Shown in pieces: positions 3,288-31,372 of a stretch of 31,372 nt of DNA. The stretch spans positions 1 through 31,372 of IMG/VR virus record IMGVR_UViG_3300028767_000070; one strand, written 5' to 3'. A program made the position numbers and the translations under genes. How positions within the stretch are numbered: the stretch's first letter is position 1; every line of letters begins with the position of its first letter. Below the pieces are notes generated by a model, which saw only the letters and a list, made by a program, of their open reading frames with translations, was not told where the DNA came from and made no database searches. Source of the DNA: a virus.

Positions 3288-3596
3288 TTATTCATCTTCA
3301 TTTGGTTTGTCTGGCAATATTCTTAGCTCAATAAAATTTAATCGGTTCTTTTTATCTTTCTTTTGATAGTTCATTTCACCAAGGAATTCTGTTTTTAATT
3401 TGGTATAACCATCTTCAATGGTTGCAAATTCAATATCTTTATTTTTTGATATGAAGTTTAACATTATGTCATGCATTAAATCTTGATCCTCTGAACTTTT
3501 AAAACCTGTTGTATTTTCATATTCATGTATTTTATTGAGTTGGCAATATTTCAATAGATCGGTGTATTTTCTTTCAATTATTTCATTTGCTGTCAT
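3288..3596 (-). CDS. Small protein resembling sigma factor region 2
   Basis: This is the last gene of the leftward operon, 102 residues. The segment NEIIERKYTDLLKYC followed by DQDLMHDIMLNFI resembles the helices of ECF sigma region 2 (A-x-D-L-x-Q-D-V-F-x-x-x) often seen in truncated form in Bacteroidota phages. No region 4 is present. The C-terminal third is charged and unrecognised. Its start overlaps the preceding small membrane gene by 14 bases, supporting translational coupling. If the resemblance is real it could redirect RNA polymerase to the late promoters described elsewhere in this window. It could equally be an unrelated helical protein. Confidence 0.7.
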   Translation of the reverse strand: MTANEIIERKYTDLLKYCQLNKIHEYENTTGFKSSEDQDLMHDIMLNFISKNKDIEFATIEDGYTKLKTEFLGEMNYQKKDKKNRLNFIELRILPDKPNEDE

Positions 3597-3708
3597 TGTT
3601 AAGTTTTTTAGCTCTTTTATTTTTGATTATCGTCTTAATTATTTTTGGAGTATAGAATATTAACAGTATTAGTGATAATATGAATTTAGTTTTATTTAAT
3701 TTTTCCAT
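3583..3708 (-). CDS. Small predicted membrane protein (41 aa)
   Basis: The reading frame starts MEKLNKTKFILSLILL and ends in a lysine-rich tail. A single hydrophobic segment at about residues 9-22 suggests a membrane protein with its basic tail in the cytoplasm. It fills the gap between the HNH gene (23 bp upstream) and the sigma-like gene, whose start codon it overlaps (14 bases shared). It is short, but the overlap and operon position support it being translated. Function is unknown. Confidence 0.5.
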   Translation of the reverse strand: MEKLNKTKFILSLILLIFYTPKIIKTIIKNKRAKKLNNDSK

Positions 3709-3731
3709 TGGTATATTATTTTGTTTAGTTA

Positions 3732-4037
3732 TTAGAATGTTTTTCCCCCATGTAACTCACCATGACACTTAGCACATAAGCTTTGTAGTTGATCATAATC
3801 TAGGAATAAAGCCCATTTTTCACCATCTGTTTTACCTTGTATAAATGGGGTCTGGTGATGGACTTGTGTTGCAAATGATACTCTTTCATAATCCAAACAG
3901 CGTTCACATACTGGATTGTTTTGTAACTTAAGCTGTCTTAATTTCAACCATTTAACAGAACTATAAAATTTTGCTCTTTCCTTTTGATTATCTGTTTTTT
4001 CTGGTTGTTTTTTGGTTATTTTATTAATTGTCGGCAT
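3732..4037 (-). CDS. HNH endonuclease
   Basis: This 101-residue protein has the complete zinc-bound HNH signature: C44-x2-C47, the paired His60-His61 (QVHHQTP), and C88-x2-C91-His92 with a further His96. The N-terminal ~30 residues are basic. Small stand-alone HNH proteins in phages cut DNA in recombination, packaging (nearly always beside the terminase) or homing. Here the gene is in the leftward early operon, 4 bp after the ribbon-helix-helix gene and far from the terminase. A role in packaging is therefore less likely than in replication, recombination or attack on competing DNA. Confidence 0.85.
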   Translation of the reverse strand: MPTINKITKKQPEKTDNQKERAKFYSSVKWLKLRQLKLQNNPVCERCLDYERVSFATQVHHQTPFIQGKTDGEKWALFLDYDQLQSLCAKCHGELHGGKTF

Positions 4038-4041
4038 ATAG

Positions 4042-4239
4042 TTAATTGTTTATTTGGTTATTGTCTATTAGATTGTATAATGATTCAGAATTTTTTGATA
4101 TGAATGATGTTACCATTGTGCGAACTAGTAAACTTTTGCTTACTTTAAAAGATTCGGATAATTCTGTAATAGTTAGAAAATCATTTGGTGAAAATCGAAT
4201 TGATAATCTATCAGCATCATTTAATTGTTTTTTTTTCAT
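4042..4239 (-). CDS. Ribbon-helix-helix DNA-binding protein, candidate regulator
   Basis: This 65-residue protein begins MKKKQLNDADRLSIRF, continues with a short strand that would form the DNA-contacting ribbon, then two helices (LTITELSESFKVS and KSLLVRTMVTSFI). This is the fold of MetJ/Arc/CopG and MobC-type proteins, which dimerise and bind operators. It lies inside the leftward operon, overlapping the preceding gene by 23 bases. As one of few recognisable DNA-binding regulators here, it is a candidate for binding the paired element upstream of this operon and of the rightward early operon. That link is inference only. Confidence 0.75.
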   Translation of the reverse strand: MKKKQLNDADRLSIRFSPNDFLTITELSESFKVSKSLLVRTMVTSFISKNSESLYNLIDNNQINN

Positions 4240-4438
4240 AGTTGAGTATATTGTTAATATGTATTATTTTAGCAGCGGTGGTATTATCTTCAAATTTAAT
4301 TCTGTTTGAAGTATCAATTAAGATATTATTATCATTTTTATAAATCAATTCACCTGTTTCTTTTATTATTCCATTGTATGGTGATATATATGTTAATTGA
4401 ACTATATCATTTTGTAAACCTTTTGTATTTTTCATCAA
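4217..4438 (-). CDS. Unknown protein (73 aa)
   Basis: Not recognised. The protein is short, with alternating hydrophobic and polar residues (VQLTYISPYNG, LIYKNDNNILIDTSNRI) suggesting a small beta-rich fold, and no membrane segment. It overlaps the nuclease-like gene upstream by 32 bases and the ribbon-helix-helix gene downstream by 23 bases. The dense overlaps in the leftward operon are the main support for its being real. The start used is the one giving the longest product; a second methionine follows immediately. Confidence 0.6.
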   Translation of the reverse strand: MMKNTKGLQNDIVQLTYISPYNGIIKETGELIYKNDNNILIDTSNRIKFEDNTTAAKIIHINNILNYEKKTIK

Positions 4439-4940
4439 ATTCTCTTTTTACATATTTATTCAATTCATAATCATAACAGTAATATGAACCTTTTTCAATT
4501 GGTATTAATAGCCTATCTTCATACTTGTATTGTTTCAGAGTTTTAATCCAAATCTTAACATCTGGTTTTAATTCTAGTTCGTCCCTGTTTAAAGTGCTTA
4601 TATCACATATCCAAAATTTTGTTTTCTGATTATCCAAAAAATTGATATACCATTTCAGATCAGCTTTTGCATTCTGTAGGGCTGTTAATTTATCTGGTTC
4701 AATAAAAAGAGCTGGATATTTATTAATGTTTATTTCCCTTGTCTTTAATTCCAGCACCCCTTTTTTATACCCTTGTTTTTGGTTGGCAATGAATGAATAA
4801 TCAATTCTTTCAAATTCTTTGTTACTGGTTACACTTTCGAAAAACCTTGCACCTGTTGTACCTGTCAAGAATGCTAGATTAGCAGTGCATATAGCCTCAC
4901 AGGCTCTACCATATTCAATTTCGTCATTAGTTAATTTCAT
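4407..4940 (-). CDS. PD-(D/E)XK-like nuclease
   Basis: The 177-residue protein shows the spacing of the PD-(D/E)XK superfamily: Glu15 in an N-terminal helix (GRACEAICTANL), Asp47 in ERIDYSF, then the strand VLELKTRE with Glu64-x-Lys66, followed by a helix containing Q88. These enzymes cleave DNA; in phages they serve as exonucleases, Holliday-junction resolvases or host-DNA degrading nucleases. It is the second gene of the leftward operon, and its start codon overlaps the stop of the small membrane gene (ATGA). No recombinase partner such as a single-strand annealing protein is recognisable nearby. The nuclease assignment rests on motifs only. Confidence 0.75.
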   Translation of the reverse strand: MKLTNDEIEYGRACEAICTANLAFLTGTTGARFFESVTSNKEFERIDYSFIANQKQGYKKGVLELKTREININKYPALFIEPDKLTALQNAKADLKWYINFLDNQKTKFWICDISTLNRDELELKPDVKIWIKTLKQYKYEDRLLIPIEKGSYYCYDYELNKYVKREFDEKYKRFTK

Positions 4941-5113
4941 TTTATTTTAAAAGTTGATATTCTATTATTTAATTCCACCCATTTAATACTATCTTGTTGA
5001 TGTATTATTGTTTGTTGTTTTTGTATTGTTTTAATTCTATTTGATTGAATTGCAATATTTATTTGAATTATAGTTAATGATATACTAATTATTAGTATTA
5101 AAAAATCTTTCAT
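4937..5113 (-). CDS. Small membrane-anchored protein (58 aa), first gene of leftward operon
   Basis: The frame begins MKDFLILIISISLTIIQINI, a hydrophobic segment of about 20 residues, followed by a glutamine-rich helix (QKQQTIIHQQDSIKW). It could be a single-pass membrane protein with a short periplasmic helix. It starts 38 bp after the conserved AAACTATTTATA promoter element and ends in an ATGA overlap with the nuclease-like gene, so it is placed as a true first gene of the operon. It is just below the usual 60-residue reporting limit. Function unknown. Confidence 0.7.
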   Translation of the reverse strand: MKDFLILIISISLTIIQINIAIQSNRIKTIQKQQTIIHQQDSIKWVELNNRISTFKIK

Positions 5114-5151
5114 GTTTATTTTTTTTATTTGGTTATTTATTTGCTTATACC

Positions 5152-5243
5152 TATAAATAGTTTTGAAAAAGCAAATGTTATGTATTTTTGAAAATTATTA
5201 TTAACAAATATGTAATTTATTATTCATTCTAAATAGTGTTAAT
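5152..5243 (-). promoter_or_regulatory. Bipartite early promoter/operator, leftward copy
   Basis: On the minus strand a 33 bp element (5243 to 5211, beginning ATTAACACTATTTAG and ending AATAAATTACA) is followed after exactly 47 nt by AAACTATTTATA (5163 to 5152). The same two blocks with the same 47 nt spacing occur on the plus strand at 8960-9051. Each block is identical between the copies while the spacer is not, so selection is the natural explanation. The ATG of the first gene follows 38 nt later. The 12 bp block could hold the -10 region. Confidence 0.75.
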
Positions 5244-5269
5244 AGAAAATTCTTTCCTTTAATTGGTTA

Positions 5270-5328
5270 TTAGGCTACAATATTTGTACTTTATAGCAAT
5301 ATATGCTGTTTTAGGCTACAAAATTTGT
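5270..5328. repeat. Direct repeat of an 18 bp word next to the gene at 5329
   Basis: TTAGGCTACAATATTTGT (5270-5287) and TTAGGCTACAAAATTTGT (5311-5328) differ at one position and start 41 bp apart. The second copy contains the 11 bp palindrome ACAAAATTTGT and abuts the stop codon of the leftward gene. The repeat could be a pair of protein-binding sites; no function can be assigned. Confidence 0.55.
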
Positions 5329-6051
5329 TTAAAACAATCTATAGTTCAACCCCACCCCACAAGACCAACCAACCCGAAAATCAGTTAATTTTACATTGGA
5401 GTTTATACCATACCCCATAAATAACCCAAATTTCCACCTATTTTGCTGTTTTACAGGTAGTTTATTGATAATTAATACACTATTAAGGTCTGAAAAGTTA
5501 ACATATTTGGACCTACTTAAGGCAGTAATAATATATTTATCTGATTGATTTACTACATTATAACTCAACTTTACCTGTATTTTATTAGTATCAATTGACG
5601 TTAAAACCTCTTTATTGATTAGATCTATGCGATTTGATCCGCTGATGGTCTGGTTTACCGAACTATCAGAGTATTGAAACTTGAAGTGTGTATTAATATA
5701 AGTGCGGTTACTGTCTGACAAAGTGTTTAAATTGCTTTGGGTTGGTAAATTTATATTTGCTGTTACCTGTATTGCTACAGCGGTGTTTTTGGTTTGCTTT
5801 GTCTGGTTATATAAATCTTTATTGAATTGCTTAAGGTCTTTAGCTGTATTAACTGTATATGTTCCTTTACTAAATTCAAATTGTTTTGTTAACCTGTTAT
5901 AGTTCTTTTTAATTGTATCGTTCTGAACAGTTAAATTATAATTTTCAGTTGATAAATTATTATTCTTAGTTTTGAAATATGAATAAGTTAATATATTCAA
6001 CAGTACTAAGGTTATTATAATGACTGTAATTTTTACATTGATTGTTTTCAT
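5329..6051 (-). CDS. Membrane-anchored coiled-coil protein with glycine/aromatic C-terminus
   Basis: This 240-residue protein has an N-terminal signal anchor (MKTINVKITVIIITLVLLN). A periplasmic helical stretch (about 25-90, asparagine-rich with coiled-coil character) follows, then a central beta-rich region. The C-terminus (WKFGLFMGYGIN ... CGVGLNYRLF) has alternating aromatic and glycine residues and ends in phenylalanine, like small outer-membrane beta segments. Proteins of this layout are frequent in Bacteroidota phages and lack a known function. A protein spanning from inner to outer membrane could act as a spanin-like lysis factor, but it could also modify the envelope of the lysogen. 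It stands alone on the minus strand, outside the early operon. Confidence 0.75.
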   Translation of the reverse strand: MKTINVKITVIIITLVLLNILTYSYFKTKNNNLSTENYNLTVQNDTIKKNYNRLTKQFEFSKGTYTVNTAKDLKQFNKDLYNQTKQTKNTAVAIQVTANINLPTQSNLNTLSDSNRTYINTHFKFQYSDSSVNQTISGSNRIDLINKEVLTSIDTNKIQVKLSYNVVNQSDKYIITALSRSKYVNFSDLNSVLIINKLPVKQQNRWKFGLFMGYGINSNVKLTDFRVGWSCGVGLNYRLF

Positions 6052-7049
6052 CTCTTTATTTTTCTTTATTATATTATAAAGTTAATATTGAGATTTTAAA
6101 CAGTTATTCAAAACAATCTATTCAACTATTTTAATTAAGTAGTCTTGAAATATTAAATAAATATGCTTTGATGGTTAATTGCTTTGCTCTGGTTGAATTA
6201 ATACCCTCTGGTTGGTACATTCACCTGTTTTCTGGTTAAAGTCGCTTAGATCGCTTTAAAATGGCTTGTTTTGTTCATCTGGGTTGGTATGGGTATTCAA
6301 TAGGGTGGTTTACCTTAATTCTCTGGGTTGGTAGCTTACTAGTTCTATGGGTTGGTGTATGGTTTACCTGTATTTAGGCTATAGGAGCTATTTAAAGGCT
6401 GTAGGTTGAATTATTACCCTCTGGTTGGTATGTTTGCCTGTCTGAGTGGTTAAAAGTAGCTCTAAGGGTCTTATTCTGGTGGGTTGGTTGCTTTGTTCCT
6501 GGGCTTTGCTTTATATATTTCAATATTAATTAACTTTAATCTATAATAATATAATAATAAATCAGTAATAATCAATCAATTATAATAATATGAATAATAT
6601 TATGAGAAAAAAACAATGATTTGTAGAATTGAAATTATAAATTATTTCTCTTAATTTTTTAAGTCTTGAACGGGTGTGTGTGCGCTCAGGCGCATGATTC
6701 TACCAATAAGAAATAATAAAACCAACATAATCAATAAAAATATTGTGCTGAAAGCAAAGTTTATTTTCTTAACATAATTGAACTATCAACAGATCATAAT
6801 TGAAAAATAGCATATCAATAGATTATAATTAACTATTATATAATTATAGATTACTATTATAGATTAGTTAATTGTTTATTTTGTAAATTTTATAATTTAT
6901 TTACACCCCATAAACCCCACTCTGGGGATTTGACCCCTACTGATTAATAGATAGTTAGATGTAAAGTACTTATATACAGTACATATTTAAAACACACCCC
7001 TACTGTATATCAACAAGTTACAAATAATTGAAAGTTTTTTAAGAATAAG
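6052..7049. other. Non-coding region, candidate origin/regulatory zone
   Basis: About 1 kb without a convincing gene separates the leftward gene at 5329 from the rightward replication operon. It contains, in order: promoter space for the leftward gene; a G-rich segment of GGTTGG-type repeats (6184-6500); an AT-rich stretch of TAATAATA words (6540-6600); a short hairpin TGCGC-TCAG-GCGCA near 6690; a CCCCA-CTC-TGGGG hairpin (6915-6927); and the word ACCCCTACTG twice (6933-6942 and 6996-7005). Only tiny frames without support are present. A repeat array beside an AT-rich stretch and next to an initiator gene fits a replication origin. Confidence 0.5.
6184..6500. repeat. GGTTGG-type repeat cluster
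   Basis: At least six copies of TGGTTGGTA/TGGGTTGGTA-like words occur at about 6209, 6281, 6325, 6349, 6422 and 6481. A 27 bp block starting GGTTGAATTA (6191-6217) recurs at 6404-6430 with a single mismatch, and the similarity continues imperfectly for about 25 bp more. TTGCTCTGGT (6184-6193) and GTTGGTTGCT (6483-6492) at the two ends of the cluster both occur in the reverse complement of the 18 bp repeats inside the replication initiator gene. Confidence 0.65.
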
Positions 7050-7080
7050 TTGTTTTTGTTAATCCATATTAGTACATTTG
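7050..7080 (+). promoter_or_regulatory. Host-type promoter for the replication operon
   Basis: TTG (7050-7052), a 20 nt spacer and TACATTTG (7073-7080) match the Bacteroidota consensus. The -7 region lies within ATTAGTACATTTGT, the same 14 bases found in the promoter at 8849-8879. Transcription would start near 7087, giving an untranslated leader of about 250 nt before the gene at 7336. Confidence 0.6.
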
Positions 7081-7255
7081 TACATATATTAAGGTATATT
7101 TTATTAAAACATATTACATTTCATTACAAAATATCAATAAAAATAGTTATTATTCTATATATCAATATATTAAATAATTAAAGAAATATTAATATTCATT
7201 AGTGTTTTTGGTTTTAGTATTATATTTATCAATGTAATCAGTTAATTTTGATTAT

Positions 7256-7306
7256 CCCCCACCAGTTTGGTGGTTCTGTCTGGTGGGGGTTATTTTAAAG
7301 AACCAC
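7256..7306 (+). promoter_or_regulatory. Attenuator-like leader with alternative hairpins
   Basis: CCCCCACCAG (7256-7265) pairs perfectly with CTGGTGGGGG (7280-7289), followed by TTATTTT: a terminator-like hairpin inside the leader of the replication operon. The same 5' arm can instead pair through CCACCA (7259-7264) with TGGTGG (7268-7273). In addition GTGGTTCT (7270-7277) is complementary to AGAACCAC (7299-7306). The pairings exclude one another, as expected of a riboregulator. It could also simply terminate upstream transcription. Confidence 0.6.
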
Positions 7307-7335
7307 TAAAATAATAGCTAAATACAGAACCCAAA

Positions 7336-8085
7336 ATGAAAGCTAAAAACAATGGTGTAATAACCAAAGCAACTACAGAAAACCCATATACTATTATACC
7401 AAATAGTATTATACAATCCGAATTATTATCATTTGACGCTATAGGTATATTAACCTATTTATTAAGTCTACCAACAGACTGGTCAATTGTTAAAACAAAT
7501 TTACACAAGAAAATTAAAATTAGTGAAAGTAGATTAGATAAGGCATTCAAAGAACTTATTAAACATAACTACATTCATACCATAAAAACATCAACAAAAA
7601 CAGGTTGGGTTTATACATATAATATTTTTTCATTACCAACTGAACCAGTTAATGAAATTGAATTAAATACTAAAGAAGAAATGAAACAAGAAACAGCACC
7701 AGAGCAACCAACAGCACCAGAGCAGGCAACTACAACACAAGAAACCACAGCACCAGAGCAACCAACTAAAGAGATCGAACCAGAACAACCAACAGACCCC
7801 AACACAGAGTTATTTAATAGGGTTGATGATTATATATTATTTAAAAATGATGGTGAATGTTATACTTATGATGATGCAATTGATTTATTAAAAAATCATT
7901 TCGAATATGATGAACTAAGAACATTATATCTAAATTTTGATTCATACCAAAAAAGAAATAAATTGAAAAGCTATTATAATAAAGTAAAGATGATAGTTAC
8001 TTGTTTAGCACCTTATGAATTAGTTAAAGAGGTTGTACAGTTAGAAGAGATTGAAAAAGTTGATTACAGATTAATGAATTTATAA
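7336..8085 (+). CDS. Phage replication initiator-like winged-helix protein
   Basis: Residues 1-100 match the N-terminal winged-helix domain of phage replisome organisers: YTIIPNSIIQSELLSFDAIGI, a DWSI turn, a segment resembling a recognition helix around SESRLDKAFKELIKHNYI, and a wing at TKTGWVYTYNIF. A flexible linker rich in APEQPT repeats (about 115-160) joins it to an unrecognised C-terminal helical domain (165-249) that could recruit helicase or loader. Such proteins bind origin repeats and start phage DNA replication. It is the first gene of the rightward replication operon, behind a promoter and an attenuator-like leader. Total length, 249 residues, is usual for the group. A purely regulatory role for the winged helix is the alternative. 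Confidence 0.75.
   Translation: MKAKNNGVITKATTENPYTIIPNSIIQSELLSFDAIGILTYLLSLPTDWSIVKTNLHKKIKISESRLDKAFKELIKHNYIHTIKTSTKTGWVYTYNIFSLPTEPVNEIELNTKEEMKQETAPEQPTAPEQATTTQETTAPEQPTKEIEPEQPTDPNTELFNRVDDYILFKNDGECYTYDDAIDLLKNHFEYDELRTLYLNFDSYQKRNKLKSYYNKVKMIVTCLAPYELVKEVVQLEEIEKVDYRLMNL
7695..7793 (+). repeat. 18 bp repeats inside the initiator gene
   Basis: AGCACCAGAGCAACCAAC occurs at 7695-7712 and 7749-7766. A variant (last six bases GGCAAC) sits directly adjacent at 7713-7730, and a more divergent copy at 7776-7793. They encode the APEQPT linker. Lambda-type phages keep origin iterons inside the initiator gene at the same place, between the DNA-binding and protein-binding domains, so these may be initiator-binding sites. 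A purely protein-level repeat is the simpler alternative. Confidence 0.6.
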
Positions 8086-8121
8086 AGCAGTAAAATAATA
8101 TAATTAAAAAATAAAATAAAT

Positions 8122-8826
8122 ATGGAAAATTTAGAATTAACCCTAACACAAAATTATAACATTAAAAATTTAAACTCAGAAATTGAAATATTCATACATC
8201 TATATAATGAAGATATATTTATTAATACATGTAAATATGTTCACTACTATAGATTGTTTACAAATAAAGAATTAGTTAAAATAGTTATGACGTTAACAAA
8301 ATATCTTTCTGATGAAAAAAATAAAGATTTACCTACAATTGACGAATTAGAAATATTAACAATTAATAATGTTGCATACTTAGGAAAAAAATTATTGTGC
8401 GAAAGACTTAAAAATATATTTGATCTAATAAGAGAAAATAATGTAAATAGTGATTTAGATGATTTTGATACAAAAAATTTGGTTGCTAGATATTTAGAGC
8501 CTGCAAAAATTACTAATTTCAATAAGATGTATAAATTGATTAATTCATTAAATAATAATGAATTTGAAATTAAAATTAAAGAGATGAATTATAGTCAATT
8601 TCTGTTAACAGGGTATTGGAATGCAATTAGAAGTCAAAAAAAGAAAATTGAAAATGGTTGTCAAAACTGTGGCTCACATAAAAATTTAGAAGTTCACCAC
8701 CTAACATATATTAATCATGGTAATGAACATAATCATTTAGATGATTTGAAAGTATTATGTACAGAATGTCATGCTAAAGAACATAATAAAAAAACTATAT
8801 ATAAATTTAATAAGCAGGTTGCATAA
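8122..8826 (+). CDS. HNH endonuclease with long unknown N-terminus
   Basis: The C-terminal 55 residues form an HNH nuclease: C180-x2-C183, the pair His192-His193 in EVHHLTY, then C213-x2-C216-His217. The residues just before (SQFLLTGYWNAIRSQKKK) match the usual entry helix of this family. The first ~155 residues are helical, rich in Asn, Lys and Leu, and unrecognised; they may target the nuclease to DNA or to a partner. It follows the initiator gene by 36 bp in the same operon, so it probably acts in phage DNA replication, recombination or maturation. A homing nuclease is possible but no disrupted target gene is visible. Confidence 0.8.
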   Translation: MENLELTLTQNYNIKNLNSEIEIFIHLYNEDIFINTCKYVHYYRLFTNKELVKIVMTLTKYLSDEKNKDLPTIDELEILTINNVAYLGKKLLCERLKNIFDLIRENNVNSDLDDFDTKNLVARYLEPAKITNFNKMYKLINSLNNNEFEIKIKEMNYSQFLLTGYWNAIRSQKKKIENGCQNCGSHKNLEVHHLTYINHGNEHNHLDDLKVLCTECHAKEHNKKTIYKFNKQVA

Positions 8827-8848
8827 TAGTTAATCAATGTTAATCAAC

Positions 8849-8879
8849 TTGTTATTAAAATATAGTATTAGTACATTTG
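8849..8879 (+). promoter_or_regulatory. Host-type promoter, second copy
   Basis: TTG (8849-8851), a 20 nt spacer and TACATTTG (8872-8879), sharing ATTAGTACATTTGT with the promoter at 7050-7080. Transcripts would start near 8886 and carry a leader of about 200 nt, with a weak hairpin GGGGTAG...CTATCCC (around 8937-8954), before the gene at 9093. Confidence 0.55.
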
Positions 8880-8959
8880 TTGAGTAAGTTATTAAATGAT
8901 GATTTGTGTTGTTGATGGTTAGTTATGGGGGTAGTTGGTAGTTCGGTCTATCCCAATTA

Positions 8960-9051
8960 ATTAACACTATTTAGAATGAATAATAAATTACACTTTCAAT
9001 GAAAATAAATAAAAATAAATATGAACTAATGGAATTTAGAAACTATTTATA
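8960..9051 (+). promoter_or_regulatory. Bipartite early promoter/operator, rightward copy
   Basis: The 33 bp block at 8960-8992 is the exact inverted copy of 5211-5243, and AAACTATTTATA at 9040-9051 follows after 47 nt, the same spacing as in the leftward copy. The first gene of the rightward early operon begins 41 nt later. The two copies point toward their own operons, away from the replication genes that lie between them. Confidence 0.75.
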
Positions 9052-9092: not shown

Positions 9093-9341
9093 ATGAGTAT
9101 TAAAGTAGAAACAAAAATCACAGGAACAATTGATGAATTATTAACAGCTAATTATTTATATATAAAAGATAATAAAATCAAAGCTACTGATTTATTATCA
9201 AATAGAAAATTATCTGAAATGATGATTAATTCATTCAAAAAAGATAATACATATATTTCAGAAATTAATAGAAGACTTTCAACAAATGAAAATAATGAAA
9301 AAGAAATATCAACTATAGTTACTTATATAGTAGCTGAATAA
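9093..9341 (+). CDS. Unknown early protein (82 aa)
   Basis: Not recognised. It has a beta-rich start (IKVETKITGTIDELL), a helical middle with conserved-looking SEMMINSFKKDN, and a beta end (EISTIVTYIVAE). There is no membrane segment. It is the first gene of the rightward early operon, directly behind the bipartite promoter element, so it is likely among the earliest made phage products. Very AT-rich coding. Small early phage proteins of this sort often modify host machinery or block defence, but nothing here shows it. Confidence 0.75.
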   Translation: MSIKVETKITGTIDELLTANYLYIKDNKIKATDLLSNRKLSEMMINSFKKDNTYISEINRRLSTNENNEKEISTIVTYIVAE

Positions 9342-9369
9342 AATAATAAAACCTAAAACCCTAAACAAA

Positions 9370-9759
9370 ATGGAAAATTTCGAACTAAAGACTGTTAATG
9401 AAAATGAATTATCAATTGAACAACTAAAAATAATAATTGAAGTTGAAACTGAAAGAAAAAATTTATTAATTAAATCACTTAATCAAAGTATATATGTATA
9501 TACAAATGATTATATGGCTGAACATAATTATAGAAATATTAATAAAGCAATACATAACATTGAATTAAAAATTAGTGAATGTTATAATTTATTTGGTAAT
9601 TTGAAAAATTCAAAAAGAATAATTCATCAAAAATTAATTAATGATTTGGATATATTAAATAAGTTATTTAATTGTTTCTGTAATATTGAAAGATATGAAT
9701 ATAATATTAATATGCAAAAAAGAATTCTAAATATAATAAAATATAACCAACACCAATAA
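9370..9759 (+). CDS. Unknown early helical protein (129 aa)
   Basis: Not recognised. The sequence is almost entirely helical by eye (ENELSIEQLKIIIEVETERKNLL, NINKAIHNIELKISECYNLF), with two coiled-coil-like halves and no membrane segment. It lies 28 bp after the first early gene and starts in the first copy of the shared leader. Function unknown. Confidence 0.75.
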   Translation: MENFELKTVNENELSIEQLKIIIEVETERKNLLIKSLNQSIYVYTNDYMAEHNYRNINKAIHNIELKISECYNLFGNLKNSKRIIHQKLINDLDILNKLFNCFCNIERYEYNINMQKRILNIIKYNQHQ

Positions 9760-9772
9760 AACCCTAAACAAA

Positions 9773-10006
9773 ATGGAAAATAACTATCCCTCAAAAATGA
9801 ACCCTGTACAAGAACTAAAAACAGGCTTAGAAAGAATAAATTTAGATCTAATTCAAGAAGTAATCAGTTATGATAGTAAGTTTAAATATAATTTGACTGA
9901 TATAATTAACAATAAAATATGTAGAATATATATTGATATAATCAACAATGAAGTTAATGAACTGGATGACTTAATTCAATTATATGATTTAATCAATAAT
10001 GACTAA
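9773..10006 (+). CDS. Unknown early protein (77 aa)
   Basis: Not recognised. The protein is acidic and helical, with many Asn, Asp and Ile residues (QELKTGLERINLDLI, NELDDLIQLYDLINND). Its small size and net negative charge resemble DNA-mimic or inhibitor proteins in a general way, but no specific signature supports that. It starts in the second copy of the shared leader, 13 bp after the previous stop. Confidence 0.7.
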   Translation: MENNYPSKMNPVQELKTGLERINLDLIQEVISYDSKFKYNLTDIINNKICRIYIDIINNEVNELDDLIQLYDLINND

Positions 10007-10038
10007 AATAAAATAACACAAATAAAACCCTAAACAAA

Positions 10039-10377
10039 ATGGAATACACAGAACAAAAAAAATTAGATTTAATAAATGGAGTAGTTGAAATAACACAGGA
10101 TGAATATAACCTACTAGAAAGAGAAAAAACATACTTTCAAAAAAAACTAGAAGAAGATAAACTTGATAAAATAAAAGGTGTAGATTCAAAAATATCAGAA
10201 TTTAAAAGTAACCTTTTTAACTATATTTCTGATACTGATGTTTTTGGTATTATTTCAAATAGAGATGAACAAAAACAGTTACAAAAACAAAGAACTGAAA
10301 TTAATGAATATATTAAAAATGAAATTTCTAAAATTGAAATTGTTTATAATGATAAATTTAATTTCAAAATAAAATAA
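10039..10377 (+). CDS. Unknown early coiled-coil protein (112 aa)
   Basis: Not recognised. Residues about 12-60 and 80-105 are charged helices (LLEREKTYFQKKLEEDKLDKIKG, EQKQLQKQRTEI). It is the last gene of the rightward early operon, begins in the third copy of the shared leader, and is followed by a strong terminator, so the operon ends here. Function unknown. Confidence 0.75.
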   Translation: MEYTEQKKLDLINGVVEITQDEYNLLEREKTYFQKKLEEDKLDKIKGVDSKISEFKSNLFNYISDTDVFGIISNRDEQKQLQKQRTEINEYIKNEISKIEIVYNDKFNFKIK

Positions 10378-10412
10378 CTAAAAACTTACTCTCATTAGTT
10401 TTTATTTTTAGA

Positions 10413-10447
10413 GGTGTTGCACTCATTCCAGTGTAGCACCTTTTTTT
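10413..10447 (+). terminator. Terminator of the rightward early operon
   Basis: GGTGTTGCACT (10413-10423) pairs with AGTGTAGCACC (10430-10440) with two G-U pairs and a 6 nt loop, followed by seven T. It separates early from late transcription. Confidence 0.9.
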
Positions 10448-10485
10448 ATTGTTTTCAGTCGATTTAAGCCACTTATATATGAATA

Positions 10486-31238: not shown

Positions 31239-31254
31239 GGTAACAATTGTTACC
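31239..31254. other. attR attachment site, perfect 16 bp palindrome
   Basis: GGTAACAATTGTTACC is its own reverse complement. The right part (from about 31243-31246 on) is host yifB; the left part is phage. The candidate core is AC (31243-31244) or AT (31246-31247). Host attB and phage attP must each contribute half, so the perfect symmetry arises at the hybrid site. Confidence 0.75.
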
Positions 31255-31372
31255 ATCGAAGTTAATGTAAGTCAGGGAATACGGTTTATGCATGTGGGAT
31301 TGCCCGACAATGCTGTGAAAGAGAGCCACGAGCGTATTGCTTCTGCACTGGAATACACCGGAAATAAGTTGC
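31243..31372 (+). pseudogene. yifB: Host yifB/comM remainder, displaced by the prophage
   Basis: The frame reads TIVTIEVNVSQGIRFMHVGL then PDNAVKESHERIASALEYTG, the conserved first part of the YifB fold with its GLPDxAVKES motif. It lacks a start codon of its own here and continues beyond the window. With the fragment at 78 it rebuilds an intact N-terminus after precise excision. The base composition is visibly richer in GC than the prophage. Confidence 0.92.

Follow-up and report, generated by a model that had tools for sequence, protein, structure and literature searches.

A 33-bp inverted repeat ahead of two divergent operons of a Bacteroidota-type prophage as a putative upstream regulatory site of two promoters

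Introduction

Little is known about how Bacteroidota phages control transcription. In the prophage described here, two operons that run outward from the replication region are each preceded by a copy of one 33-bp sequence (33-mer), and the copies face in opposite directions. A sequence-only reading of this DNA had proposed that the 33-mer and a 12-bp block (12-mer) at a fixed distance from it form a bipartite switch for both operons. The locus thus raises the question of whether the 33-mer is a regulatory site of the two promoters and whether it places both operons under joint control. We analyzed the window, that is, the whole stretch of 31,372 nucleotides, which is also the whole record, and compared it with a collinear relative, G001.

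Results and discussion

Prophage and gene context

The record is an integrated prophage in a Bacteroidota-type genome. At its two ends, the window carries what read as the halves of one yifB/comM-like host gene. After position 78, the first bases encode MLVKTFGAAVQGINAT (78-125), which we take, from knowledge of the family, to belong to a YifB/ComM-type protein; the last bases (31252-31371) encode VTIEVNVSQGIRFMHVGLPDNAVKESHERIASALEYTGNKL, and this right-end half matches PF13541 (E 5e-7). The two host-gene halves indicate that the prophage is integrated in that gene. A 5.5-kb contig from another metagenome (L084) encodes a portal protein 100% identical to that of the window, which points to this phage, or one very close to it, in a second sample. 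The main features around the repeat are as follows.

222-2264: large serine integrase, adjoining the integration junction
3288-5113, minus strand: left operon, outward of the left 33-mer
3732-4037, minus strand: HNH gene of the left operon
4042-4239, minus strand: ribbon-helix-helix protein of the left operon, by predicted fold match
6052-7335: noncoding region of 1.3 kb with repeated TCTGGTTGGTA-like motifs, parts of it conserved in G001
9093-10377, plus strand: right operon, with four small ORFs and a terminator hairpin at its end, before the small terminase gene
10410-10443: hairpin, predicted terminator of the right operon

The region between the two 33-mers holds a DUF6808-like gene (240 aa, minus strand), noncoding DNA, a gene for a DnaD-like replication initiator, and an HNH gene. 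The left operon encodes a small membrane-type protein, a putative PD-(D/E)XK-like protein (assigned from its conserved ID...ExK pattern alone), a 73-aa protein, the ribbon-helix-helix protein, an HNH protein, and a 102-aa protein.

The repeated element in the window

The elements of the two promoter regions are listed below, where A, B, and C denote modules.

8960-8992, plus strand: right 33-mer (module A), ATTAACACTATTTAGAATGAATAATAAATTACA, exact; conserved in G001 at 32/33 positions, the 47-nt spacing included
5211-5243, minus strand: left 33-mer (module A), ATTAACACTATTTAGAATGAATAATAAATTACA, exact (33/33); missing at the orthologous G001 promoter
9040-9051, plus strand: right core (module C), AAACTATTTATA, the 12-mer, present at both promoters of the window and of G001
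5152-5163, minus strand: left core (module C), AAACTATTTATA; over 5108-5163, promoter and leader share 91% identity with their left counterparts in G001
9001-9018, plus strand: module B, AT-rich GAAAATAAATAAAAATAA, common to the right and left promoters of G001

At both places, the 33-mer is followed by 47 nt, then by AAACTATTTATA, and after a further 41 nt (right) or 38 nt (left) by the ATG; every coordinate previously given for the repeat, the gap, the 12-mer, and the distances to the ATG was correct. The 33-mer is the sole exact repeat of such size in the window, where no further copy within 10 mismatches occurs. Dinucleotide shuffling (100 sequences) gave exact inverted repeats of 21 nt at most, the longest per shuffle averaging 16.8 nt, so that chance does not account for one of 33 bp. 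In such AT-rich DNA, the sharing of some 12-mer, whatever its offset, is unremarkable (P = 0.07), and it is therefore the identical register that carries the weight, an exact in-register run of at least 12 nt downstream of both 33-mers having P = 0.00055. The left and right 47-nt spacers agree at 22/47 positions, against 16.4 expected (P = 0.04), and outside the element, 5' of the 33-mer and 3' of the 12-mer, the two copies are no more alike than by chance. The 33-mer and the core have ACTATTTA in common, 76 bp apart in both copies, and no clear dyad or tandem repeat was found inside the 33-mer.

In the stretch between the DUF6808-like gene and the left 33-mer (5265-5330, minus strand), ACAAAT(T/A)TTGTAGCCTAA occurs twice, some tens of nt apart; this pair is not in G001.

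Conservation of the promoters in a collinear relative

The search for the 33-mer in related phages that had been recommended yielded one collinear phage that keeps the right copy: G001, the record of L087 (28,490 bp), was found by a scan with a 19-mer, the left half of the 33-mer. The region was compared in these two phages, and all statements on conservation rest on this single comparison. Structural proteins of the two are ~45% identical, and neither the replication (initiator) proteins nor the first two right-operon products show significant similarity. Although the proteins have diverged to this extent, the right promoter of G001 carries the 33-mer at 32/33, followed after exactly 47 nt by AAACTATTTATA. 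The right intergenic region (8837-9051) is nearly invariant, with 12-15 of 15 positions identical in most 15-nt bins, and is far more conserved than the surrounding genes.

Different genes lie between this regulatory region and the conserved terminator (9093-10377 in the window, L087:2129-3017 in the relative), and the right-operon genes may be an accessory cassette exchanged between fixed regulatory borders. The hairpin stretch 5' of the small terminase gene (10366-10474) is 94.5% identical to G001 and recognizable in the terminase relatives L003 and L004; it is a candidate terminator, packaging site, or small RNA.

At the left promoter of G001, which is orthologous to that of the window, the core and leader are kept (56 nt, 91% identical; 0/1000 shuffles as good), and the 33-mer is absent, its best match having 11 mismatches. 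Across the two phages, the core is exact in four of four promoters, 37-41 nt before the ATG, and the 33-mer is present in three of four, which identifies the former as the shared promoter core and the latter as an upstream module. The AT-rich module of the G001 left promoter, (A)ATGAAAATAAATGAAAATAA, matches the window right promoter at 20/21 (shuffles, P ~0.001 or less). Module B stands 21 nt from the core in the G001 right promoter and 31 nt in the G001 left promoter, in the latter 10 bp, or about one helical turn, further away; it was not found in the window left promoter. This shows a modular build of the promoters, with A, B, and core at the right, A and core at the window left, and B and core at the G001 left.

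Its absence from the G001 left promoter shows that the 33-mer is no obligatory partner of the core, and joint control of the two operons would be confined, at most, to the window lineage. The proposed bipartite switch is thus partly supported: the right copy, conserved in sequence and spacing, speaks for it, and the left promoter of G001 speaks against it. It had also been anticipated that a relative with one block kept apart from the other, at random distances, would speak against the proposal; G001 agrees with this in part, as it has the 12-mer without the 33-mer on the left but keeps the 47-nt distance on the right. From the sequences compared, the arrangement looks like an ordinary shared promoter switch and not an obligatory two-sided device.

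Primary-sigma promoters around the element

The consensus of Bacteroidota primary-sigma promoters comprises a -7 element TAnnTTTG and a -33 element TTTG (PMC7366714, PMC9723704). On the plus strand of the prophage, TTG-N20-TAnnTTTG occurs four times against 0.19 expected in the 2 kb of noncoding DNA examined, and the minus strand of the same regions has none. Three of the four sites have G001 equivalents, and two (6406, 7050) lie in the noncoding region 6052-7335. Two of the four, one ahead of the replication gene and one upstream of the right 33-mer, are the following.

7050-7080, plus strand: predicted primary-sigma promoter TTG-N20-TACATTTG, 5' of the replication gene; G001 equivalent at 3458
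8849-8879, plus strand: predicted primary-sigma promoter TTG-N20-TACATTTG, fitting the consensus and 31/31 identical in G001

The 8849-8879 promoter is located upstream of the right 33-mer, its predicted start ~75 nt before it, so that transcription of the right operon may not require the 33-mer/12-mer unit. None of the four core promoters has TAnnTTTG at the expected place of the -7 element. A TTTG precedes the core by ~12-16 nt in three of them, and ATGG is found in the window right promoter. Since the AAACTATTTATA core does not match the primary-sigma consensus, its promoter role is deduced from position and conservation. A scan for E. coli-type promoters gave matches no more frequent than in shuffles.

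A putative upstream site acting on the core

The conserved sequence and distance at the right promoter, together with the equal distance at the window left promoter, favor an upstream site that acts on the core. We give a probability of roughly 0.5 to the reading that the 33-mer is an upstream regulator-binding site common to two outward-facing promoters. The exact core in all four promoters, the orthologous left leaders, the shift of module B by about one helical turn, the shared ACTATTTA, and the repeated cassettes of distant terminase relatives (see below) also speak for it. The two places would be paralogous promoter regions facing outward from the replication region, and AAACTATTTATA would be the core of a second promoter class with a start just downstream. 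One regulator would bind the 33-mer, which ends 47 bp upstream of the core, and from this fixed helical position would act on the core promoter. It would control both outward operons in the window lineage and the right operon only in G001, and the right operon could also be transcribed from the constitutive-looking primary-sigma promoter further upstream. The G001 left promoter presumably works without the 33-mer, which counts against this explanation.

A phage ribbon-helix-helix protein and a host factor are equally likely as the 33-mer binder. The model of the protein encoded at 4042-4239 is predicted to adopt the ribbon-helix-helix fold, its best Foldseek matches being CopASO, CopG, ParG, and Arc (probability <=0.98, E 0.26 or worse), and its homologue in G001 is 46% identical. 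It is a candidate binder of the 33-mer. The sigma-like protein that had been suggested as a further regulator was unsupported: the 102-aa protein has no family match and a low-confidence model without a fold match, and it was rejected in this role.

Alternative explanations

The alternative that survives best, although we consider it doubtful, is that the left 33-mer is the trace of a recombination event (ectopic conversion) by which it was copied from the right promoter, the likeness reflecting descent and not common control. Three observations agree with such copying: the G001 left promoter lacks the 33-mer, the two promoter regions show relatedness outside it as well, and the right region sits between swapped genes. 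The window left copy also equals the window right copy at the sole position that differs in the G001 right copy (ATTACA vs ATTGCA), which allows recent copying in the window lineage or, with two phages compared, shared retention. However, a neutral copy should bring its flanks, yet identity falls to chance on both sides, and both the spacing and the sequence are exact.

It is rather unlikely that the 33-mer is enhancer-like, a phage or host activator opening a second, non-canonical promoter class of Bacteroidota phages (core AAACTATTTATA) and thereby switching both operons together, possibly through a 3.7-kb loop. Somewhat less probable still is a transcribed antitermination or processing element of the lambda nut or HK022 put type, acting in RNA from the upstream primary-sigma promoter. 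This would agree with the position of the right 33-mer behind that conserved promoter, with a strong hairpin terminator further on, and with the occurrence of the 33-mer in two divergent units, but the left strand has no matching upstream promoter and the G001 left unit has no 33-mer. Its structured-RNA form was rejected, as no stable structure was predicted (shuffle z 0.00 and -0.37 for the element, -1.16 and -1.08 for the whole leader) and no Rfam match was obtained.

We regard as improbable a replication-linked site, bound by the initiator or marking the edges of the replication region. The two copies do flank the initiator gene and 1.3 kb of noncoding DNA, but the right 33-mer is kept while the initiators of the window and G001 are dissimilar, and G001 has one copy only. 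It is scarcely credible that the 33-mers are transposon ends or the recombination sites of a DNA segment that inverts, and both readings were rejected: perfect inverted repeats of 33 bp that have TG...CA ends and enclose 3.7 kb, together with the large serine recombinase of the same prophage, would suit them, but no target-site duplication and no transposase inside were found, the shared 12-mer lies outside the repeats, and the G001 segment is intact, in the same orientation, with a single 33-mer.

Wider searches and distant relatives

An exact 31-mer search of viral contigs gave no match, nor did a 21-mer from the right half of the 33-mer; the 19-mer from the left half matched L087/G001 and one unrelated coding sequence (L088). 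Phage and plasmid DNA collections gave chance-level matches only, and two genome-contig scans with terminase and portal alignments revealed no relative. The 33-mer is absent from the closest terminase relatives, L003 and L004, which carry AACTATTTATA ahead of the replication gene. Across the wider group, the strand bias of this motif upstream of genes is weak (ACTATTTATA 6 vs 1), and the motif is therefore not claimed as group-wide. The same two contigs have tandem, iteron-like 23-bp repeats, GGTGTCGGACACTTAGGTAGTAG, upstream of a putative replication gene (L003:766-876, L004:376-509).

More distant terminase relatives (L023, L032, L052, and L053) have direct repeats between genes, arranged as cassettes whose distance to the next start codon is nearly fixed (137/137/131 nt in L023, 76/77 in L053, and 60/61 in L052), which suggests that repeated promoter cassettes are common in this phage group. 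The 33-mer case is accordingly of an ordinary type among phage promoters, in a phage group that is uncharacterized. The promoters of the window and G001 form a compact, testable set in which an upstream module accompanies a core and, in one natural variant, the core occurs without that module. Should a regulator bind the module, a phage switch would be identified in this phylum; on the present evidence, we regard the case as a plausible cis-regulatory duplication of an ordinary sort.

Comparison with known systems

The operator sets of phage lambda are ~2.3 kb apart (PMC5880393). The present locus resembles lambda OL/OR in having two inverted regulatory regions ~2-4 kb apart before divergent phage units, and one protein could bind both, such binding being hypothetical here. 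Lambda operators overlap their promoters, each set comprising three short dyads, whereas the single 33-bp block found here is asymmetric and has its end 47 bp upstream of the core. The same element stands before both units in the window but is missing from the left side in G001, so that the lambda-type arrangement does not hold overall.

In phage HK022, one put element is present in each of two divergent early units (PMC9378689). The 33-mer shares with nut and put the pattern of one element per divergent unit; in contrast to put, a structured RNA, it has no stable structure, and no boxA-like sequence was recognized by eye. Compared with Bacteroidota primary-sigma promoters, which its four TTG-N20-TAnnTTTG sites resemble, the prophage has in its AAACTATTTATA core a sequence that does not fit.

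No sequence common to the 33-mer element and the cassettes of the distant terminase relatives was detected. The likeness to these cassettes is one of layout, since they too are repeats of ~25 nt or more at a near-fixed distance from the start codon; there, the repeats are direct and precede co-directional genes, whereas here they are inverted because the operons diverge.
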